From Fibrobacter sp. UWH4 (lineage in GTDB: Bacteria; Fibrobacterota; Fibrobacteria; Fibrobacterales; Fibrobacteraceae), in assembly GCF_900142475.1 (NCBI RefSeq), contig NZ_FRAY01000003.1, positions 124,001-188,000 of the forward strand: a stretch of 64,000 bases of DNA, written 5' to 3'. Made by a program: the position numbers and the translations under genes. The notes beneath the pieces were generated by a model, which did no database searches, was not told where the DNA came from, and saw only the letters and a program-made list of their open reading frames with translations. Below, piece after piece: positions 22,930 to 43,241 of the stretch (its first letter is position 1; each line of letters starts with the position of its first letter).

Positions 22930-23106
22930 AGAGGTGAGTCGTTGAGCGAACATTCGTTGGCCGAAGGCCAAGGCCATGTGAGCGAGATGTGCTCACCTCT
23001 GAAGCTGTAGCATGTCCGTGAGCAACAAACGCCCGGTGTTAACCGGGCGTGGTTGCGAGAGCGAGGCGATATCACATTTTTAATCTGCGATAGAGCCGAG
23101 CGGTCT
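22930..23106. repeat. Cluster of palindromes and a 51-bp dispersed repeat
   Basis: AGAGGTGAG (22930-22938) pairs with CTCACCTCT (22992-23000) around an inner TTGGCC-GAA-GGCCAA hairpin. A second hairpin, ACGCCCGGT-GTTA-ACCGGGCGT (23029-23050), can terminate the GH116 gene on the minus strand. A 51-bp element at 23056-23106, beginning CGAGAGCGAG and ending GAGCGGTCT, matches 28661-28711 inside nuoN at about 40 of 51 positions. This fills the 297-base gap between genes. Confidence 0.75.
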
Positions 23107-23108
23107 CA

Positions 23109-26100
23109 TTAATAAAGCAGAGCGAACACCATGCCGGGGCGGAAGTACTTGCCGGCGGTGTACTTGAGGGCCGTGCTGTGGAGCAGCATGAACAGCGCGC
23201 TTGCTTCAACCTTGTTGGCCTTCGCGATGCTACCGAATGCCTTGGTAAAGGCGGGCAGGTTGCGCGGGAGCTTCGGGCTGATGCGGGAGTCTGCAAGCAG
23301 GGCGCCCTTCTTCAGGAGTTCCTTGTGCATCTTGTCGGCGGCGGTAGCGCTGAGGCCGAAGGCCTTCACGAGCGCTTCCGGGTGCAGGCGGCAGGAACCG
23401 TTGAATCCTTCCGGTGCGGCGAACGGGATGCGTGCTTCTTCGTAGAGGTTGCGGATCATGGAATCGCCCATGTCGGCAGCTTGCTTTTCCAATCCGTGGT
23501 GCATCATGGCGCACATGATGCTGTACTGGATGCCGATCCACACGTCGTGAGCCTGGAAGTTGAATTCATCGAGCGGGCTGCCGTCCTTGCGAACGAGGTT
23601 TGCGGCGCCGATGAGCGGGCTGTTGGCCTTGTAGTTCGTGTTGAAAATGCGCAACAGGTTGGCCTTGGCCTTCTTCTCGTCGCTGATGGGCTTGAGGCCG
23701 AGCAGACGGAGGTAAGTGTCGGCGAGCATCGTGTCGGCGAATACGTCGTCGCAGTCGTTGGCAATCTTTGCGTTCCAGCTGGCGGTGAAAGCTTCCTTGC
23801 ACTGGGCAGTGAGCCATGCCTTCTTGAGGCCGCGGAGTTCGTTCTTCGAAAGTTCCACGTCGCTCGGGATTTCGCCGGAGTTCAGCCATTCGTTGATGGT
23901 CTTGAGGGCGGCCTTCACGTTGTTGCTGTCGATGACGAGCGTTTCCTTGATAGCGTCGGCCAGCTGCGGGAGCTTGTCAGCCACAATGTCCTTCGCTTCC
24001 ATCGGAGTCACGAAGAAGTGGTAGTAGCCTTCGGCTTCGTCCCACAATGCTTCATCGAATTCCTTATTGGCGGCGTCGGCCTTGGCGTTCCAGGTGTCGG
24101 CCTGAGCCTTGTCGCCGAGGATTTCGGCAATCTTGGCCGCAGCGCGGAGGCCTGCAATCCAGAGGCTACCGCAGTACACGGAAATGCCGTGGCTGGAGAG
24201 GTTGTCGAACGTGTCGTCGGTACCGTGGGTGAGCGGGAAGTTTTCGCCTTCGTTCACCATCTTTTCGAGGTACTGCATGGCGGCATAGACTGCTTCCTTG
24301 CAATCCTGCAAGTTCTGCTTGTCCTGCGTCTTCACGTAGTGGCGCAGCACCATCAGCACATACTTCGGGGCCAAATCCTTCCATTCCTTCACGTTGTGCC
24401 AGTCGTAGGCATCGGGTTCAGCGTCAAAGGGGCTTCCGAGGTCGTGAATCACGGCGCCACGGACGGCGCGGGGGCCTTCCAGTTTCGGGTCCGGGAGGTC
24501 GGCGAACGGGTGGTTCACATATTCGTGGTGGCGGCGACGGTTGTCGTTCACGGCGAGAATCGCATCACCGAAGCGCTTCATCACCACACCGTCGAGGCGC
24601 GGCATTAGAGCCATCAGGCTGAAGCTGCCGTAGAAGTAAACGTCCAGAGAGTTGAAAAACGGATAGTCGGCGCATTCGCGGACGAGGAAACGGTCGTCCT
24701 TGTCCCACACGGTGGCTTCGGCGAGGAAGCTGAGCGTGTTGAGGGCGAGGCTCTTGAATTCGTCCTGCTTGGCGGCAGTCTTGTAGAGCTTGGCGACGGC
24801 CTTCTTCGGCACGAGCGCTTCGAATGCCTTGAGGCGAGCGTCAAAGTTCTTGTCGGCGGCGAGGGCTTCTTCGAGGATAGCGCCCACGCGGCCATAAGCT
24901 TCGGGGAAGAAGGCTGTGTACTTCTTGGCAGAAGTAAGCTTGTTCAGCTTGATTTCGGGGAAGTCGAGCACCAGGTTGAACTGGAAAGAAACCTTCTGCT
25001 TCGGCTTGAGAACCGCAGTAACGGCGACGGCACCGGCCATCGTCTCGCGGCCGCTGTAAACGTTCTTGACCCAGGCTTCGCAAACGCGACCGCTGCGGAG
25101 AGCGCCCTTCAAAACAGAGGCGGCGTCATCCTGGTAGAACATCGGCTTCACGGAAACGTTCAGGTTATCCTTCTTGTTCCAGGCGACGGACACGCCCATG
25201 CAGCCGTTGAAGTCGCTTTCGGCGAGCGGCTTTTCGTTGTAGAATTCGAGACCGCGGACTTCGCGGCCGTCCTTGGCCTGCTTGCTGAACTTCACGCCCT
25301 TCGGGAAACGTGCGGACGGGACGAGCACGAAGCTGGAGTCCTGAACGCCCTGGCGGTCCTTCTTGGCCATGTAACCGGCGATGCAGTCCTGCACCTGCAC
25401 AATCGTGACTTCGCGGGTTTCCTTGGTGGTGTTTTCGAGAGTGAACACGGTGGCGTTCACGGGGAGGCTGGAGAGGCGTTCGTCACCCGGGGTCACGTAG
25501 CTGGACTGGGTCTTGGTAATTTGTACGCCTTTGCCTTCGTACTTGGTTTCGCTCACCGGGTAGAGGGCGGCGTACTGCATCTTGGCGGCATCGTAACCGG
25601 CCTGGCCCAGGAATTCAGTGTCGTTTGCCCAGGCGGCGGTGAGGGCGCCCTGGCGCACGGCCTTTTCGCCCACGACACCGTTGAAGAAATCGATGACGGC
25701 GCTGCGGTTGAGTTCGGCACCGACCTTGTTCAGGAGGGCCGCGGTGCGGTCGCTCCATTCGATGTGCCAGCGTTCAAAGTCGGCCAGGTTGTTCTTGAAA
25801 AAGTCCTTCTCGGCGATGGCCTTGTTGAGCTTGGCCTCGGCCTTCTTCTGGTTTGCAAGTTCTGCGGCGCTGAAGAGTGCTTCGCCCTTTGCGTCCACGA
25901 GCGGGTATTTGGCGAGCATCTGCGTAAATCCGGCGAAGTCGACGATTTCGAGGGCGGCCTTCGCGTCGATTACGGATTCGCGGAAGAAGAAGTTGTTGAA
26001 GCGGAGGTCAGCGGGCTTTTCGGTGCGGACCTGCACGCCCGGCATCACGTTCATCACGGGTGTGGTGCCTGCAGGCGTTGCGGTGAATGTGGAGCCGATA

Positions 26101-26246
26101 CCGCCGACAGCAATACCCGTGGTAGAAGGGGTCGTAGAAAGCGGGGTGTACCAGGGCTGGATAAATTCCACGGCGAGGCCCGGGGTCATCAGCTTCTGGA
26201 CGGAACCGGCCTGTTTTGCGCCGGCAAGGTATTCTTTGATGCTCAT
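23109..26246 (-). CDS. GH116 family glycosidase (GBA2/DUF608-like)
   Basis: A protein of about 1045 residues without signal peptide. The N-terminal half is a beta-sandwich ('TTGIAVGGIGSTFTATPAGT') and the C-terminal half an (alpha/alpha)6 barrel. Motifs fit GH116: 'RECADYPFFNSLDVYFYGSF' with a candidate nucleophile Glu near residue 524, and 'THGTDDTFDN' with candidate acid/base Asp near 677-678. That spacing of about 153 matches the pair known from TxGH116. 'SVYCGSLWIAGLRAAAKI' also fits. Family activities include beta-glucosidase, beta-xylosidase and glucosylceramidase; the substrate here is open. The ATG at 26246 has GGAA 7-8 bases upstream; an alternative ATG at 26258 has no site. It is monocistronic and cytosolic, so it probably acts on imported sugars. 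Confidence 0.82.
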   Translation of the reverse strand: MSIKEYLAGAKQAGSVQKLMTPGLAVEFIQPWYTPLSTTPSTTGIAVGGIGSTFTATPAGTTPVMNVMPGVQVRTEKPADLRFNNFFFRESVIDAKAALEIVDFAGFTQMLAKYPLVDAKGEALFSAAELANQKKAEAKLNKAIAEKDFFKNNLADFERWHIEWSDRTAALLNKVGAELNRSAVIDFFNGVVGEKAVRQGALTAAWANDTEFLGQAGYDAAKMQYAALYPVSETKYEGKGVQITKTQSSYVTPGDERLSSLPVNATVFTLENTTKETREVTIVQVQDCIAGYMAKKDRQGVQDSSFVLVPSARFPKGVKFSKQAKDGREVRGLEFYNEKPLAESDFNGCMGVSVAWNKKDNLNVSVKPMFYQDDAASVLKGALRSGRVCEAWVKNVYSGRETMAGAVAVTAVLKPKQKVSFQFNLVLDFPEIKLNKLTSAKKYTAFFPEAYGRVGAILEEALAADKNFDARLKAFEALVPKKAVAKLYKTAAKQDEFKSLALNTLSFLAEATVWDKDDRFLVRECADYPFFNSLDVYFYGSFSLMALMPRLDGVVMKRFGDAILAVNDNRRRHHEYVNHPFADLPDPKLEGPRAVRGAVIHDLGSPFDAEPDAYDWHNVKEWKDLAPKYVLMVLRHYVKTQDKQNLQDCKEAVYAAMQYLEKMVNEGENFPLTHGTDDTFDNLSSHGISVYCGSLWIAGLRAAAKIAEILGDKAQADTWNAKADAANKEFDEALWDEAEGYYHFFVTPMEAKDIVADKLPQLADAIKETLVIDSNNVKAALKTINEWLNSGEIPSDVELSKNELRGLKKAWLTAQCKEAFTASWNAKIANDCDDVFADTMLADTYLRLLGLKPISDEKKAKANLLRIFNTNYKANSPLIGAANLVRKDGSPLDEFNFQAHDVWIGIQYSIMCAMMHHGLEKQAADMGDSMIRNLYEEARIPFAAPEGFNGSCRLHPEALVKAFGLSATAADKMHKELLKKGALLADSRISPKLPRNLPAFTKAFGSIAKANKVEASALFMLLHSTALKYTAGKYFRPGMVFALLY

Positions 26247-26258
26247 AGTTATTTCCAT

Positions 26259-26560: not shown

Positions 26561-27315
26561 ATGAACAAAAGAATTCTTTCCGTCGTGCTGTTATCCTTGG
26601 TTGCGCTCGTTAGTGCCCAAACTGCTCCAAAGCTTAGTTCGCCTGCGCCCATGGAACACCGTGGTTTCTATAACAGCGTTTCTTTCGGAGCTGCCTACAA
26701 CTGGTATGAAAACAGCAAGAATGAAAAGACGAATACAACAATGGACGCACGAATGTTGTTAATCGCGAAATCAATACCTTCGAGTATAGCGGCGGCACGT
26801 TCCCGATGATTGAATTCAAGTTCGGTGTGGCACTCGCCAATTTGCTGGCGTTCCATACTGTTTTTAACATGGGTTTCTTCTCGGGTACGATAGAGGAAGG
26901 TTTTTCAGAGTACCGTAAGGAATGCGGTGAAAATAAAATCTGTATAGAGGAAGAACTGGAAAAGAAAAGGGTTAGGGATAAGTCTTCGGACGCTTACAGT
27001 TTCAGGTCATATATTGGTTTCGGCACGACCATTTACCCGATTCAGGACAAACAGTCCATAATGAATGGCCTCTTTGTCGGAGGTTCCATCGGTTATATGC
27101 TCTTTGCGACAATGATTAATGACGGCCTTGAAAATGCATCGGCGAATGCGGGGGCGGCTTTTCAGGTGGAACTCGGCAAGGACTGGTGGGTGAACGATCA
27201 CCTGTCTATCGGCGTGGGTCTCGGTTATGCGCGTAGTGGTTTGGTCTGGAACACGGTCAAGTCCTACGATACAGATAACGTAATTTCACTTTCGTTCAGG
27301 CTCACTCGAGGATAG
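26561..27315 (+). pseudogene. Frameshifted outer-membrane-barrel-like protein
   Basis: The first frame (ATG 26561) gives a signal peptide ('ILSVVLLSLVALVSAQ') and 'PMEHRGFYNSVSFG', then stops at 26809. The rest of the protein continues in the next frame from about 26725 to 27315 ('FPMIEFKFGVALANLLAF', 'YIGFGTTIYP', 'VELGKDWWVNDHLSIGVGLG'). One extra A in the A-run at 26724-26727 restores a single frame of about 250 residues. The joined product parallels its neighbour at 27319-28218 throughout. A terminal aromatic/beta pattern ('NVISLSFRLTRG') suits an outer-membrane beta barrel. It could be a decayed gene, a phase-variable gene or a base-calling error. Confidence 0.75.
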
Positions 27316-27318
27316 ACT

Positions 27319-28218
27319 ATGAAGATAGGTAAAAGTCTATTCGTGGCGATGGCGGTGTCTGTCGCTGCGTGGGCTCAGGACGAGATGGGACCGGTTGAAA
27401 GTCCCGCGGCGGAAATGCCGATGATGAGCGCTCCGCAAAATCCGAACCCGGCACTTGCGGCAGAACCTGTCGCTCCGGCGAAAAAGACTCGTGCGAAAAA
27501 GGTGCGCCCGCCCCATGAACATCGCGGATTCTTTTTCAGTATGGGCATGGGTGTCTCGTATGTGACGACATCCGTAGACGAATCAAATGTGGAGAACAGT
27601 TCGAGTGGGGGGTATACGGACTCGGATGGAAACTTTATTCCTCAAAGCAAGTATGAACGTGAAAGGATACTCCATGAGGAATTTTCCGGTTGGGCCACGC
27701 CGATTATCGAATTTCGCTTTGGAAAGTCTATCGGAAATTTAGTGGCATTGTATTCCATCTTCTCGACGGGTATCTACCAGGGGGAAGGTTCTCATAAAAA
27801 ACTGAATAGGGACCTTTCATATCGTTACGACCGCTCGGGCACCCTGGCATCAATTGATACGATTCCCAATGGAACCAAAAAGAAGAAGGACGGCGCTTTA
27901 GCTTTTTTTGAATCCTTTGGCCTGGGCCTTTCCGTTTATCCGTTCCGTGATCCGGAATCGGTTTTGAATGGGTTGTATATCGGTGCTTCCGGGGGCTTCG
28001 AGGCTTTTGACTCTCATCTGGACGATTCTTTTTCTCTTATTTCGAATGGCGGTGTCTATACACGTTTTGAATTGGGCAAGGATTGGTGGGTGAGCGATAT
28101 CTGGTCGCTCGGCGTGGGCTTTGCGTATGTCAATGTCACCGTCTTTGAAGATGGAAACGACAAGGAAGAACATGAGCGCAATTCCATTAGCTTCTTTATA
28201 AGGCTGACTCACGGATAA
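27319..28218 (+). CDS. Outer-membrane-barrel-like protein, paralogue of 26561-27315
   Basis: A 299-residue exported protein: signal 'SLFVAMAVSVAAWAQ', a Pro/Ala-rich linker to about residue 65, then 'PHEHRGFFFSMGMGVSY' and alternating strands with 'IIEFRFGKSIGNLVALY', 'GLGLSVYPFRDPESVLNGLY' and 'FELGKDWWVSDIWSLGVGF'. It ends 'NSISFFIRLTHG', like a beta-barrel C-terminus. AGGA lies 6 bases before the ATG, and only 3 bases separate it from the upstream frameshifted paralogue, so the pair is a tandem duplication. A terminator follows at 28250-28276. Function unknown; an outer-membrane location is inferred. Confidence 0.78.
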   Translation: MKIGKSLFVAMAVSVAAWAQDEMGPVESPAAEMPMMSAPQNPNPALAAEPVAPAKKTRAKKVRPPHEHRGFFFSMGMGVSYVTTSVDESNVENSSSGGYTDSDGNFIPQSKYERERILHEEFSGWATPIIEFRFGKSIGNLVALYSIFSTGIYQGEGSHKKLNRDLSYRYDRSGTLASIDTIPNGTKKKKDGALAFFESFGLGLSVYPFRDPESVLNGLYIGASGGFEAFDSHLDDSFSLISNGGVYTRFELGKDWWVSDIWSLGVGFAYVNVTVFEDGNDKEEHERNSISFFIRLTHG

Positions 28219-28290: not shown

Positions 28291-28378
28291 GGTCGCGAGC
28301 GGTCTTACCGTGAGCAAAAAGCGACCCGTATTAACGGGTCGCGATTGACGCCTTTGGCGTCCGCAGCTTCGGCTCAGC
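28291..28378. repeat. Dispersed repeats and hairpin downstream of nuoN
   Basis: GCGACCCG-TATTAA-CGGGTCGC (28321-28342) can terminate the nuo operon on the minus strand. It is preceded by CCGTGAGCA, as is the hairpin at 23029-23050. A 32-bp element (28347-28378, beginning GACGCCTTTGGCGTCCGCA) recurs inverted at 49289-49320 with 29 of 32 matches. TCGCGAGCGGTCTTACCG (28293-28310) recurs exactly at 53215-53232 inside mlaD. Confidence 0.7.
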
Positions 28379-28479
28379 AATAAAATTAAACAAGTTTAAT
28401 TTTGCTGCATTCGCCTTGCATGCTTTTGCGAGAGAATCGGCTTCAGAGTAAGGATTCTGTTGAATATAGCCGATTCGGT

Positions 28480-30012
28480 CTAAAAAGTAAAACCAGCGAA
28501 GATATTGTCGCTCAGGAACGGCAGCACTCCAAGCACGATCACTGCCACGGTCAGGAGGACGATGACGCCGCGCTGACGCTTGGTCATACGCAACGGATTC
28601 AGGTGCATTTCGGCGGTGTCCTGTGAGCCGGAGCCATCAAGCGTAAGCTGATGGTGTAGGCGAGAGCGAGACGATGTCGTAAGTTCTTGCTGCGATAGAG
28701 TCGAGCGGTCTGTAGGATCGATCCAGGCGCTCTTAATGAGCTGCAAGTAGTAGTACAGCGCAAGCACGTTGTTCAGCACGGCGAATGCCACGATTCCGTA
28801 GTGGCCGGTCGATGCGCCACTGAAGAAAAGGTGGAACTTTCCGAAGAAACCAGCAAGCGGCGGAATACCTGCGAGGCTGAACATAGCGACGGCAAGCGCA
28901 ATCGCGAGTGTCGGCTTCTGCTTGGAAAGTCCGCGCAGGGAATCGAAGGTTTCTTCGCGGTGGTGACCGATGATGCCGAAGATGAAGAACGCGAGATAGT
29001 TCGAAACGGCGTATACGAACAAGTAGTAGATAATGGCGGTCTTTCCCATGACGGCATCACCGAGGAGCGCCACCATAATATAGCCCGCCTGCGCAATGGA
29101 GCTGTAGGCCATGAAACGGCGCAGCCTGCTCTGCTTGAGGGCGCCGAGGTTTCCGACGAACAAGGTTGTGCCGGCAAGAAGGGCGATGAACGGGGCAATC
29201 TGTTCCTTGATGGGGGAGAGCGGACCATAGACCAGAACGACGAGGAATGCGATTGCGGTCGCCTTGGAGGTTACCGAAAGAATGGCGGTCACGGGCGTAG
29301 GTGCACCTTCGTAAACGTCGGGGGCCCAGGTGTAGAATGGGAACAGGGTCAGCTTGAAACCGATTCCTGCAAACAGGAACAGCACGGCAATCCACAGCAA
29401 TGGAGAACTTCCGCTTGCAACTGCCTGCTGGATGGAATCAAAGTGGATGGAACCTGAGAAACCGTAAAGGTAGCTGAATCCGAACAGTTCGAAGGCTGTC
29501 GCAACGGAGCCCATCAGGATATATTTGGTGGCTGCTTCTGAACCGTATTGGTCGCGCTTGTTCCATGCGGCAAGGGCGTACATCGGGATTGTTGCGATTT
29601 CAAGGCCCAGGAAGAACGTGAGCAGATCGCAGGCCGACACGACGGTGAATCCGCCGAAGGTGGCGAATGCCACGGTGCCGATAAATTCTGCAATTTGGTG
29701 CATGGCGGGCTTGCCGTCGCCGCCGTGTTCAAAGTAATCCTTCGCAAGCCAAATGCCGAGAATGGCCGAAACCATCAGCACTTCGCGCATGAGCACGCCG
29801 AAATCGTCGATGTGCCAGTTCGTGATGAAGAACCGGCCCACTCCGCCCGAAAGCGGAATGAAGTTCAACAGGACAAAGATGGCAATGAAACCGATGTTCG
29901 CAATGCGCCAGGGCACCTTGGAACGGTCGGTGCAGAAGAGCCTGCTTCCGATCACGATGAACGGAAAAAGCAGAAGCAGTAAGTCGGGGATAATAAAATT
30001 GGGAATATACAT
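28480..30012 (-). CDS. nuoN: NADH-quinone oxidoreductase subunit N, with repeat-encoded loop
   Basis: A 510-residue antiporter-like subunit of complex I with about 14 membrane helices and the conserved motifs 'FKLTLFPFYTWAPDVYEGAP' and 'SLAGIPPLAGFFGKFHLF'. Near the C-terminus, between the last two helices, is an extra polar loop of about 45 residues ('DRSTLSQQELTTSSRSRL' and 'DGSGSQDTAEMHLNP'). It is partly encoded by a dispersed repeat (28661-28711) also found outside genes at 23056-23106. The reading frame is intact. It is last in the nuo operon, 72 bases after nuoM, whereas the other junctions mostly overlap or nearly touch. Confidence 0.9.
   Translation of the reverse strand: MYIPNFIIPDLLLLLFPFIVIGSRLFCTDRSKVPWRIANIGFIAIFVLLNFIPLSGGVGRFFITNWHIDDFGVLMREVLMVSAILGIWLAKDYFEHGGDGKPAMHQIAEFIGTVAFATFGGFTVVSACDLLTFFLGLEIATIPMYALAAWNKRDQYGSEAATKYILMGSVATAFELFGFSYLYGFSGSIHFDSIQQAVASGSSPLLWIAVLFLFAGIGFKLTLFPFYTWAPDVYEGAPTPVTAILSVTSKATAIAFLVVLVYGPLSPIKEQIAPFIALLAGTTLFVGNLGALKQSRLRRFMAYSSIAQAGYIMVALLGDAVMGKTAIIYYLFVYAVSNYLAFFIFGIIGHHREETFDSLRGLSKQKPTLAIALAVAMFSLAGIPPLAGFFGKFHLFFSGASTGHYGIVAFAVLNNVLALYYYLQLIKSAWIDPTDRSTLSQQELTTSSRSRLHHQLTLDGSGSQDTAEMHLNPLRMTKRQRGVIVLLTVAVIVLGVLPFLSDNIFAGFTF
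28661..28711 (-). repeat. Dispersed repeat inside nuoN coding sequence
   Basis: A 51-base element matching 23056-23106 (about 40 of 51 positions). The outer parts CGAGAGCGAG and CTGCGATAGAG-CGAGCGGTCT are nearly identical and the middle diverges. In nuoN it is translated in frame as the Ser/Arg-rich loop. Confidence 0.8.
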
Positions 30013-38926: not shown

Positions 38927-39520
38927 CTAATAGAAATTCTGCAGCTCCTGTACGGTTCCAAATATCGTGTTGCCAATCTGGAATCGGTCAAGGACGTGCC
39001 GTAACAGGTCCTTGAATTCATCCATGGTCGCTGCGTTCATTTCGTTCAGTTTTTCTTGAATGGCGTTCACGTAGCCCGAGGCGACTGGTTTGGTCTTGAG
39101 GTCCTGCATTTCGCCAGCCCACCGTTGCAGCATCTGGTCGGTATCAATACGGGCGATAACATAGTGTGTGGTCGAAAGCATCTCCTGCAAAAAATGGACC
39201 AGGAAGATTTCTTCTTGCAAAATACCCCAGCGTTTGTCCTTGGAATACATCGCCTTGTTTTCGTTTTTGCCGTAAAAGATTGCCGCCTGGGCATATTCGA
39301 GGCAGGTCATGATCAGCCTTTCGTAGCGCTTGATTTCCTTGCTCAGGCTCTGAAACCAGATGGTGTCCGCCACCGGATTCGGTTCCTTGCGGTCTGCGAT
39401 TTCGTTCGGGAAAATCGCCCTGAACGCGTAGTAGACTTCTTCGTAATAGCGGTTGCGCATACGGCAGTTGAAGGCGCGGTTCTTTAAGGTGTAGTCGCTA
39501 TGGTGGAGTTTGCTAATCAT
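38927..39520 (-). CDS. Conserved-looking hypothetical protein next to rsh
   Basis: A 197-residue, mainly helical soluble protein without signal peptide or recognisable motif. It is rich in Tyr and charged residues ('MRNRYYEEVYYAFRAIFP', 'SLSKEIKRYERLIMTCLEYA') and ends 'IGNTIFGTVQELQNFY'. Its ATG overlaps the rsh stop (ATGA), so its level is tied to that enzyme. A role in stringent signalling is only a positional guess. Confidence 0.7.
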   Translation of the reverse strand: MISKLHHSDYTLKNRAFNCRMRNRYYEEVYYAFRAIFPNEIADRKEPNPVADTIWFQSLSKEIKRYERLIMTCLEYAQAAIFYGKNENKAMYSKDKRWGILQEEIFLVHFLQEMLSTTHYVIARIDTDQMLQRWAGEMQDLKTKPVASGYVNAIQEKLNEMNAATMDEFKDLLRHVLDRFQIGNTIFGTVQELQNFY

Positions 39521-41664
39521 GATTTGACCACCTGTTTTACGCCGTTAATGTTCTTGATGGCGGTGATAATGGAATCGACCTGTTCCTTGCGGAAAGCCTT
39601 GAACACGAGCCTAATGCGGCCTGAATAATGCTTGCTTGCCGAGGAGACCCTTTCGAGGAACACATTCGCGCGCTTGAGTTCTTGCAGCACGTCGAAGGTG
39701 ATGTTCTTGCGGTTCTCGGTCTCGATGGTCAGGTGCGCCTCGAAAGAATGCTTGATGTCTTCGCTCCATTCGACGGCGATGCGCTGTTCCATGGGCAGGT
39801 TCTTGAGTTGCGGACAGTCCGTATTGTGGACTTCGATACCGATTTTCGGGCGCAATACGCCGACAATCGGGTCGCCGGGCACGGGGCTGCAGCACTTGGC
39901 GAAATGTACCACCAAGCTGGTTTCCTGGCCAATTTGCAGGGGCATTTCATCTTTGCGGTCGGCCTTCATGTCCTTGTTGAACATGGGGAAGAACCTAAGC
40001 GAGTTCGATTCCTTGGTCGTGGTTTCGCCACCGTTTAAGAATCGTTGGATGTCCGCCAGCGGAAGTTCGCCCTGGCCGAGTCTTTCGTAGAAGTCGTCGA
40101 TCGTGGGCGTTCCAAAATACTTGCAAATGCTTTCTTCGGAAGGACGCTTGACCTTTTCGATCTTTTGTAGGCGGAGCTCGCGGTCCCAGATTTCCTTGCC
40201 GAGGTCGAGCGCCTGTTTCATGATGCTGCTTTTCATCCAGCGGCGCAGTTCCTGCTTGGCCTTTACGGTTTTCACCATGTCGAGCCATTCGGGGCTCGGT
40301 TCTTGGTTCGGGCTCTTGAGAACCTGGATGGTGGCGCCGTGTTCGACGACTGTATCGAGGTTCACCACCTCGTCGTTGATTTTTGCGCCGATGCAGTGCA
40401 GGCCGAGCTCGGTGTGGACCGCAAAGGCGAAGTCCAAAACGATGGAACCCTGCGGGAGTTCAATCGAGGTGCCCTTGGGGGTAAACACGGTCATGCCGGT
40501 GGGCTTCAGGTCCACCTTCAAGAAATCGAGGTATTCCTTGGAGTCCGAAATTTCGGACTGGAGCTTTACCATGTGGTTCAGCCATTCCAGTTCCTCGCCC
40601 TCGTGCTGGGTTTCCATCTTGTAGGCCCAGTGGGCGGCGAATCCCTTTTCGGCGGTCAGGTCCATGTCCTTAGTACGGATCTGGACTTCGACCATCTTGT
40701 TTTCGGGGCCGATTACGGTGGTGTGGATGCTCTGGTAAAGGTTCGGTTTCGGGGTCGCGATGTAGTCCTTGAAGCGACTCTGCAGCGGGGTCCACAGGTT
40801 GTGGACGTAGCCCAAGGCCAGGTAGCATTCGGGAATCGTCTCTACAATGATGCGGATGGCGAAGATATCAAAAATGTCCTCGAACTGGCATCCGCGGCTG
40901 AGCATCTTGTTGTAGATGCTGTAAATGTTCTTGGTGCGCCCCTGGATGGTGCAGTCGAAGTCTTCGAGAGCCATCTTGATCTGCAACGGGCCGATGACCG
41001 ACTGGATATACTTTTCGCGGGATTCCTTGTTCTCGATGAGCAAGTCCACCAGTTTCTGGTATTCGTCGGGATTGACATATTTGAAACTTAGGTCTTCCAG
41101 CTCGTTTTTCAGCTTGTAGAGGCCGAAACGGTGGGTGAGCGGAATGTAGATGTCAAGCGTTTCCTGCGCAATGGCTTGCCGTTTTTCGGGCTTCATGTAG
41201 CGCATGGTGCGCATGTTGTGGATGCGGTCCGCAATCTTGATCATGATGACCCGGGGGTCTTTCGCCATGGCGATGATCAGCTTACGGTAGGTTTCCGCTT
41301 TCTGGGCGGTCTTGCTCGATTCCTGGGCGGCCGTGATCTTGGTAACGGCATCGACCATGAAGGCGGTGTCGTTTCCGAATTTTTCAGCAATTTCTTCAAG
41401 GGAGTGGTTGGTATCTTCAACCACGTCGTGGAGTAGCCCTGCGAGGACCGTTGACTGGTCTTGTTTTAGGTCTGCAAGAATTTTGGCTACTTCGTAGGGG
41501 TGCTCGGTGTAGGGCATTCCGCTCTTGCGGTACTGCCCCTCATGAGCCTCTGCAATAAAGGCAACAGCTTTTTCAAGAATCCCACGATCCAGATTAGGAT
41601 TCTTCTTTAGAAGCACATCGATAATGTGCGTTTGATTTGATGTCAGGCTCGTTTGATCCATCAC
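39517..41664 (-). CDS. Bifunctional (p)ppGpp synthetase/hydrolase (RelA/SpoT homologue)
   Basis: A 715-residue long RSH protein. The HD hydrolase domain is at residues about 25-190 ('YTEHPYEVAKILADLK', 'AGLLHDVVEDTNHSLEE'). The synthetase domain is near 230-340 ('FDIFAIRIIVETI', 'YIATPKPNLYQSIHTTV'). A TGS domain is near 385-445 ('LPQGSIVLDFAFAVHTELGL') and an ACT-like end is near 640-715. Both catalytic halves look complete, so it should make and break the alarmone. The start may be the ATG at 41664 or 41661 (MMDQ). It is co-transcribed with the hypothetical protein downstream. Confidence 0.93.
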   Translation of the reverse strand: MMDQTSLTSNQTHIIDVLLKKNPNLDRGILEKAVAFIAEAHEGQYRKSGMPYTEHPYEVAKILADLKQDQSTVLAGLLHDVVEDTNHSLEEIAEKFGNDTAFMVDAVTKITAAQESSKTAQKAETYRKLIIAMAKDPRVIMIKIADRIHNMRTMRYMKPEKRQAIAQETLDIYIPLTHRFGLYKLKNELEDLSFKYVNPDEYQKLVDLLIENKESREKYIQSVIGPLQIKMALEDFDCTIQGRTKNIYSIYNKMLSRGCQFEDIFDIFAIRIIVETIPECYLALGYVHNLWTPLQSRFKDYIATPKPNLYQSIHTTVIGPENKMVEVQIRTKDMDLTAEKGFAAHWAYKMETQHEGEELEWLNHMVKLQSEISDSKEYLDFLKVDLKPTGMTVFTPKGTSIELPQGSIVLDFAFAVHTELGLHCIGAKINDEVVNLDTVVEHGATIQVLKSPNQEPSPEWLDMVKTVKAKQELRRWMKSSIMKQALDLGKEIWDRELRLQKIEKVKRPSEESICKYFGTPTIDDFYERLGQGELPLADIQRFLNGGETTTKESNSLRFFPMFNKDMKADRKDEMPLQIGQETSLVVHFAKCCSPVPGDPIVGVLRPKIGIEVHNTDCPQLKNLPMEQRIAVEWSEDIKHSFEAHLTIETENRKNITFDVLQELKRANVFLERVSSASKHYSGRIRLVFKAFRKEQVDSIITAIKNINGVKQVVKS

Positions 41665-42000: not shown

Positions 42001-42009
42001 GTATAATGA

Positions 42010-42162
42010 CCGCACGAGCTGCAAATGAGTGTATTCTTATACTTGGCTCGTGCTCTCGCGACCGTCCCAGCTTAACGCGTGGAGCTTTGTCGCTCACGGT
42101 AACGACCGAATCGGCTACATTCAACAATGTTCTTACTCTGAAGCACGAGTGCAAATGAGTTG
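42010..42162. repeat. Short direct repeat pair between the ncRNA and the radical-SAM gene
   Basis: GCACGAGCTGCAAATGAGTG (about 42011-42030) and GCACGAGTGCAAATGAGTTG (about 42142-42161) flank about 110 bases without a gene. The second copy abuts the stop codon of the radical-SAM gene. Confidence 0.55.
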
Positions 42163-42164
42163 TT

Positions 42165-43241
42165 TTATGCGCCAGCGTCTTCGAGGCGTTTTACGTGGCA
42201 GTAGGCGAGTTCCTTGGTCTTCTCGTCGCGCAGGTGCAGGCTGGAGCCTTCGCAGTAGCGCCAGTACTTGCAGGTCTTGCAGTCGCCAATTTTTGCCCAG
42301 CTGCGGTCGCGCATCACTTGGTAGCGGTTCTGCCAAACGTCCCAGAGGTCGTCCTTGTAGATGTTGCCCTGGATATAGTCACCGCGCAGGCTCGGACATG
42401 CCGAGACGCTCCCGTCACAAAGCACGGAAGAGACGTTCACGCCGGCACGGCAGAAGAACGGGTAGTTGCGGGCGTCCTTCTCGTAGCTCCCGAGGAAGCC
42501 TTCGCAGCCGTAGTTCACGCTGATGACGTTCAGTTTCTTCACTTCACGGATGAAGTCGAACACCTGGCGGAATTCCTGGTTCGTGAGCTGGAACAGCGGA
42601 TTGTCTTTGGCGCGGCCCTTCGGGAACACCGTCGCGATGCGCCAGCGCTTCACGCCGATTTTTAGGAGAATGTCGAGAATCTTCGGGAGTTCCTTGAGGT
42701 TCTGGCGGTTCACGCAGGTCATCACGTCGAAGGTGAGGCCTTCGGTGTGGGCGGCCATGTCGATGGCGCGGAGCGCGTTGTCGAAACTTGTGGGGGCGCC
42801 GCGGAAATGGTTGTGGCTTTCCTTGAGGCCGTCCAGGCTAATCGTGAGTGAGCGGAGGCCTGCATTCAGCAGCTTGGTGTAGCGTTCGGGGGTCATCGCA
42901 AGGCCGTTGCTGACCATTCCCCAGGGGTAGCCGCGCTTCTTGATTTCTTGCCCGCATTCCTCGAGGTCCTGGCGCATCAAGGGTTCGCCGCCGGTAATCA
43001 CCACGATAAAGTGCTTCGGGTCGATGTGCGGGGCGAGTTTATCCAGCACGCCCATAAAATCTTCGCGAGGCATGTCGGGGATGGCGTCCTTCACGCAGTC
43101 GCTACCGCAGTGCAGGCAGTGCAAGTTGCAGCGGAGCGTGCATTCCCAGAAAAAGTAGGTGAGGGGGTGTGCCTTGATTTCGTTGTGGCGGTAAAGGCGG
43201 TAAGCTTCGAGAGCGAGTTTCTTTTTGAGAGAGAGTTGCAT
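42165..43241 (-). CDS. Radical SAM/SPASM enzyme of an rSAM-lipoprotein system
   Basis: A 358-residue radical SAM protein. The core cluster motif CX3CX2C is at Cys38, Cys42 and Cys45 in 'CTLRCNLHCLHCG', followed by 'VITGGEPLMRQDL' and 'SNGLAMT'. The C-terminal SPASM region has many Cys ('FFCRAGVNVSSVLCDGSVSA', 'GDCKTCKYWRYCEGSS') for auxiliary [4Fe-4S] clusters. SPASM enzymes usually modify peptides or proteins. It follows a lipoprotein gene by 3 bases. From memory this matches the TIGR04133/TIGR04134 radical-SAM/lipoprotein pairing described in protein family databases, whose chemistry is not known. Confidence 0.85.
   Translation of the reverse strand: MQLSLKKKLALEAYRLYRHNEIKAHPLTYFFWECTLRCNLHCLHCGSDCVKDAIPDMPREDFMGVLDKLAPHIDPKHFIVVITGGEPLMRQDLEECGQEIKKRGYPWGMVSNGLAMTPERYTKLLNAGLRSLTISLDGLKESHNHFRGAPTSFDNALRAIDMAAHTEGLTFDVMTCVNRQNLKELPKILDILLKIGVKRWRIATVFPKGRAKDNPLFQLTNQEFRQVFDFIREVKKLNVISVNYGCEGFLGSYEKDARNYPFFCRAGVNVSSVLCDGSVSACPSLRGDYIQGNIYKDDLWDVWQNRYQVMRDRSWAKIGDCKTCKYWRYCEGSSLHLRDEKTKELAYCHVKRLEDAGA

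Follow-up and report, generated by a model that had tools for sequence, protein, structure and literature searches.

A genus-specific structured repeat of Fibrobacter probably translated in frame as an added loop of the complex I subunit NuoN

In Fibrobacter sp. UWH4 the complex I subunit NuoN carries an additional loop, and we consider it likely (probability about 0.86) that this loop is encoded by a copy of a structured repeat, interspersed and specific to the genus. The window analyzed here is a stretch of 64,000 nt from this organism (contig NZ_FRAY01000003.1, positions 124,001-188,000 of the forward strand), and all coordinates below and in Table 1 are those of the window. A sequence-only reading of the same DNA had proposed that a dispersed repeat expands NuoN in frame, and this is borne out by an unbroken frame of 510 codons and by a full-length match of the inserted DNA to a covariance model of the repeat.

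Table 1. Location of nuoN, its insertion, and copies of the repeat in the window
Feature	Position	Strand	Basis
nuoN, complex I subunit N	28480..30012	-	510 aa ORF, open throughout, insertion included; Pfam PF00361; solved NuoN/ND2 relatives
In-frame insertion, net 99 bp or 33 codons by comparison with all relatives	~28612..28710	-	alignment of proteins and codons to empty sites; each junction may be off by a few codons
Complete two-hairpin Fibrobacter repeat in nuoN	28617..28714	+	covariance model R1, 72.1 bits (somewhat flattered, see text), E 5.3e-16, positions 1-99 of 99
Hairpin 1 of nuoN copy	28627..28661	+	stem varies, position and loop type conserved; folding, covariation in 32 copies
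Hairpin 2 of nuoN copy	28662..28710	+	helix with tandem GA/GA internal loops (GCGAGAGCGAGACGAT ... CGATAGAGTCGAGCGGTC); folding, covariation
Intergenic copy just past stop codon of minus-strand ORF 23109-26258	23012..23109	+	model R1, 107.9 bits, E 1.2e-25
Partial copy downstream of nuoN stop, split by a nested palindromic insert	28304..28356	+	model R1, 32 bits, E 3.5e-5; sequence
Third full-length copy in window, intergenic between ORFs 39517-41664 and 42165-43241	42004..42103	-	model R1, 48 bits, E 1.6e-9

The product of nuoN matches the Pfam family Proton_antipo_M with an E value of 2.6e-69, and its best solved relatives are the ND2/NuoN chains of complex I. The last two helices are predicted at residues 405-430 and 478-500, leaving 47 residues between them with a net excess of 33 over relatives, in keeping with the extra loop of about 45 residues described from the sequence alone. 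The translated segment had also been called Ser/Arg-rich. Its reading frame and its position between the last two helices stand; the emphasis on Arg does not, as the 39-residue segment between conserved flanks holds 7 S, 6 T, 4 Q, and 3 R by manual count, a Ser/Thr/Gln-rich composition. The loop peptide includes STLSQQELTTSSR.

Comparison with relatives provides the matched empty sites. NuoN was detected in 40 of the 41 genomes searched, and the proteins from the genus align to residues 1-435 and ~468-510 of the UWH4 protein, with nothing between. The insertion is missing in all 24 other genomes of the genus and in 42/42 readable named Fibrobacter MAGs (of 43 records; the two sets overlap in part), each of which has a short loop, as do the outgroups. 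At the site itself, the DNA of the closest relatives reads TGG ATH GAY GAN ACN GAC GAN CAC CTG, to which UWH4 adds a net 99 bp. The nearest relative, MAG Fibro_02 (LVAE01000090.1), is 93.6% identical in nucleotide sequence over nuoN and has a clean empty site, so the insertion postdates that split. As judged from these alignments, the loop is recent and lineage-specific. MAG Fibro_02 (L385) also lacks the partial repeat copy that UWH4 has downstream of the nuoN stop.

The inserted DNA is larger than it appeared at first. A 51-base match between 28661-28711 and 23056-23106 had been taken as the repeat; the match is reproduced (40/51), and its end motifs occur at only these two places in the window, against ~0.1 and 0 expected from shuffles. 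The 51-bp segment is, however, the right half of an element of about 90 bp and was rejected as the unit on the basis of tandem spacing, alignment, and model. A genome search with the intergenic copy returned thirty matches, and tandem copies have a period of 94. Alignment of 32 copies from several species gives a unit that spans about 86-99 bp and holds two hairpins side by side, in the order GTGAGC, hairpin 1, GCGAGAGCGAGRCGAT, hairpin 2, GATAGAGYCGAGCGG. The left half escaped the sequence-only reading because the stem of hairpin 1 varies by compensatory changes.

The same alignment supports the fold. The structure comprises 20 pairs, with double compensatory changes at 16 of them; pairing holds in 93% of cells, double-change cells number 101 as compared with 29 in shuffles, and the values drop sharply once the partners are slid. 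The tandem 5'-GA-3'/5'-GA-3' internal loops of hairpin 2 are strongly conserved. A manual count bearing on the strand of the functional fold gave ~15 G-U against 10 A-C cells, numbers that do not decide between the strands. In nuoN the conserved core GTGAGC...GAGCGG spans 28623-28708, and both hairpins still fold. The NuoN copy is among the 32 used to build model R1, which somewhat flatters its score of 72 bits; BLAST, which is independent of the profile, also pairs it with other copies over most of its length. The full-length model match indicates that the inserted piece is the whole element. By sequence reading, the only inverted ends are ACCG/CGGT, about 4 bp. Nested palindromic inserts like the one that splits the partial copy downstream of nuoN (window 28304-28479) are also seen in copies at L036 and L008. 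Beyond that copy, the stretch 26563-27315 holds a paralogue of the gene at 27319-28218 whose frame seems to be broken near 26750-26806, either as a pseudogene or through a slip in sequencing.

With the model, 53 copies of the family were identified in the UWH4 genome, between 3 and 55 in every one of 24 further Fibrobacter genomes, and a single marginal match (E 0.003) among 16 genomes of other genera. The Rfam search returned no match near threshold over the element, and, with no gathering score reached, assignment to a known RNA family was dropped. The literature searched, chiefly open-access, describes no element of this kind from Fibrobacter. The placement of the copies is asymmetric: among 191 intergenic copies with a called right-hand neighbor, the 3' end of that neighbor faces the GAGCGG end of the element in 163, and in 78 of those 163 the stop codon lies within 10 bp of the element. 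These counts derive from 216 delimited copies and are approximate, with genes called by a simple codon score. Such placement is expected of an element at transcript 3' ends (a terminator or stabilizer) or of insertion directed to gene ends, and the data fit both. From position and orientation alone, the element in its usual place most likely acts at transcript 3' ends, as a terminator or as a stabilizing structure.

The sequence-only reading had proposed looking for more copies in coding regions. Among 257 distinct copies examined together with their flanks, seven are in frame within coding sequence and belong to four genes: those for NuoN, ComEC, HrpB, and a PHP-like protein. A copy was called coding where the frame is open through the element and codon usage is favored on both sides; many other long frames through the element were set aside as shadow frames, with codon usage not favoring both sides. 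The census covered open frames through the element. Random insertion would place most copies in coding DNA, so 7/257 points to a strong depletion of coding copies. Those that survive are in frame and sit in loops. The names HrpB and PHP-like are those we presume from recognized sequence motifs; Pfam supports a DEAD/DEAH helicase for the former and gives no family for the latter.

The ComEC copies, in genomes G001 and G014, lie in proteins with the Pfam Competence domain. The ComEC of G004 holds an eroded remnant of the element, which indicates that this insertion lasted through speciation. The HrpB copies occur once in G020 and twice in G022, where they are in tandem and in frame (L293 1452-1636) and the ~31-residue peptide is doubled; the PHP-like copy is in G022. 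Orthologue alignments identify the peptides as additions. The ComEC of sister species G006 has none, and the element peptides are likewise absent from the remaining HrpB orthologues and from the PHP-like orthologues of G016 and G002. The element lies in its usual gene-end sense in NuoN and the PHP-like protein and in the opposite sense in ComEC and HrpB. The loops of HrpB (L293, L237) and of the PHP-like protein (L363) also hold peptides that resemble translations of other dispersed repeats, namely RHPEERSDEGS, RQAHQPSKVPEPAEGPKG, and tandem ERRETRDEREVDLD, and these loops thus appear to be hot spots where repeats become translated.

Several observations bear on what the insertion does to NuoN. 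Relative to MAG Fibro_02, the codons before the insert show 78 synonymous and 4 non-synonymous changes and those after it 8 and 1, counts that include time before the insertion. These changes are consistent with purifying selection on a working gene, much of which may predate the insertion. AlphaFold2, run with 27 orthologues, predicts helices flanking the insert with confidence, and residues 436-470 have pLDDT <50. A KRQR motif flanking the insert suggests, by the positive-inside rule, that it lies on the cytoplasmic side. We conclude that the added peptide is most likely a tolerated, disordered polar linker, neutral or nearly so.

These results suggest a route in which the repeat would have copied itself, or been copied, into nuoN. 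Nearly all insertions into coding DNA would be lost, and those kept would be the open, in-frame ones that fall in solvent loops. With a polar, disordered linker, probably on the cytoplasmic face, NuoN would still work.

It is possible to suggest instead that the loop is ancestral in NuoN, was lost elsewhere, and gave rise to the intergenic repeats. The sequence-only reading had named a loop shared by all orthologues, distant phyla included, as the finding that would overturn it, and the survey above instead found the loop in no other readable Fibrobacter NuoN and a short loop in the outgroups as well. The family, moreover, is genus-wide, has its own covarying structure, and is present as dozens of intergenic copies per genome. 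Nothing was found in favor of an ancestral loop, which we consider highly improbable. An assembly chimera or sequencing artefact that misjoined a repeat into nuoN might be entertained, considering that some repeat copies lie near contig ends in these assemblies. The NuoN copy, however, shares no more than 78% identity with any delimited copy, which argues against a misjoined known copy, and the nuoN frame is open on both sides. Together with the independent cases in three other genes, one of them common to three species, this leaves an artefact very unlikely. The donor search likewise found nothing above 78% even though the insertion is recent, a point that counts against our main reading; the loop may have evolved rapidly.

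A different question is whether the insertion is adaptive, with the NuoN loop, or RNA hairpins formed within the gene, modifying complex I or controlling how the nuo transcript ends. The coding copy retains both hairpins, with changes that keep the pairing, and it lies in the usual 3'-end orientation relative to nuoN, as such a role would have it. On the other hand, this copy no longer has the A-run that would read as a U-tract in the nuoN sense (1 A of 7, as compared with a mean of 3.9), the loop is predicted to be disordered, and the insertion is confined to one lineage. Loss of the A-run would be expected if an intragenic terminator were harmful, though this is a single case. On balance we regard an adaptive insertion as unlikely and favor a translated copy of the repeat that NuoN tolerates.

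In-frame insertion of palindromic repeats has precedents in Rickettsia palindromic elements (RPE), intragenic REP, and ERIC, and so, while the conversion of repeat to protein that had been called striking is upheld, to present it as strikingly new would overstate the case. The closest parallel is RPE (Ogata et al. 2000; reviewed in PMC2229807, PMC10969869), which inserts in frame in many genes and of which nearly half of the copies were coding in Rickettsia conorii as first reported (PMC10969869). The likeness extends to a genus-specific, structured repeat (about 100-150 bp for RPE) that has intergenic copies as well as others placed in frame within conserved housekeeping genes, the insert being thought tolerated. 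Confinement to the genus has its analogue in Fibrobacter, where 25/25 genomes carry the repeat, and in-frame insertion in several unrelated genes is seen in the four described above. In contrast, Rickettsia is unrelated, the Fibrobacter element sets two hairpins next to each other, of which one has tandem GA/GA loops, the coding share is ~3% (7/257) rather than nearly half, and the usual site is just past stop codons. By analogy, the element appears to work like RPE; we treat it as a separate family and liken the two by their properties, without claiming membership by descent.

Other small repeats share fewer features. REPs (GTAG- and CGTC-tagged; PMC3733652) occur beside gene 3' ends, where genes converge or run in one direction, and also inside genes, as does the Fibrobacter element, but they measure 20-40 bp as opposed to ~90 bp, bear a tetranucleotide tag, and often come with a RAYT transposase. 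Assignment to REP/RAYT fails on two features: a Y1 (RAYT) transposase, PF01797, has no match in the UWH4 genome (controls were positive in 5/14), and the unit of ~86-99 bp has GTGAGC/GAGCGG ends and no GTAG or CGTC tag. ERIC/IRU, YPAL, and the NEMIS/Correia MITEs (PMC2229807) are likewise small structured repeats with in-frame ORF fusions, yet their terminal inverted repeats are longer and they come with target-site duplications, as compared with inverted ends of ~4 bp and direct repeats at no fixed offset here. The Caulobacter CIR (PMC2229807) also has two independent stem-loop arms in tandem and is intergenic; unlike the present element, it carries a GANTC methylation site and has not been seen inside genes.

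Rickettsia, which lives obligately inside cells, offers the best-documented cases of noncoding repeats converted into protein, and the phenomenon would now extend to a gut bacterium of another phylum. The matched empty and filled sites, one case common to three species, and one in-frame tandem pair form a natural series with which one can ask how noncoding structured DNA turns into protein, whether neutrally or not. The work also describes, in an important cellulose-degrading genus, a large family of structured 3'-end elements that is absent from Rfam.

A broader reading, which we advance tentatively and at somewhat less than even odds, is that this may be an undescribed genus-wide Fibrobacter element with no clear transposase or target duplication, specialized to the few bases past stop codons and repeatedly captured in frame as disordered loops of conserved proteins. 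Structured repeats that encode protein would then have originated independently in this genus, with complex I among the targets. An exact 20-mer scan of IMG/VR and a plasmid search, which exclude close copies only, were both empty with respect to phage or plasmid carriage. Flanking direct repeats with 6/6 matches occur in 15/216 copies as compared with 2.1 in shuffles, a modest excess at no fixed offset and with a contribution from tandem copies; the HrpB copies are flanked by identical 6-mers. With no Y1 transposase in the genome, this weak signal counts against our main reading. Finally, the element-free HrpB sites of G003 and G010 (L358, L357) read GGAGCCGAACGG, a near match to the final 12 bases of the element, which may be either a remnant of deletion or a target that resembles the element end.
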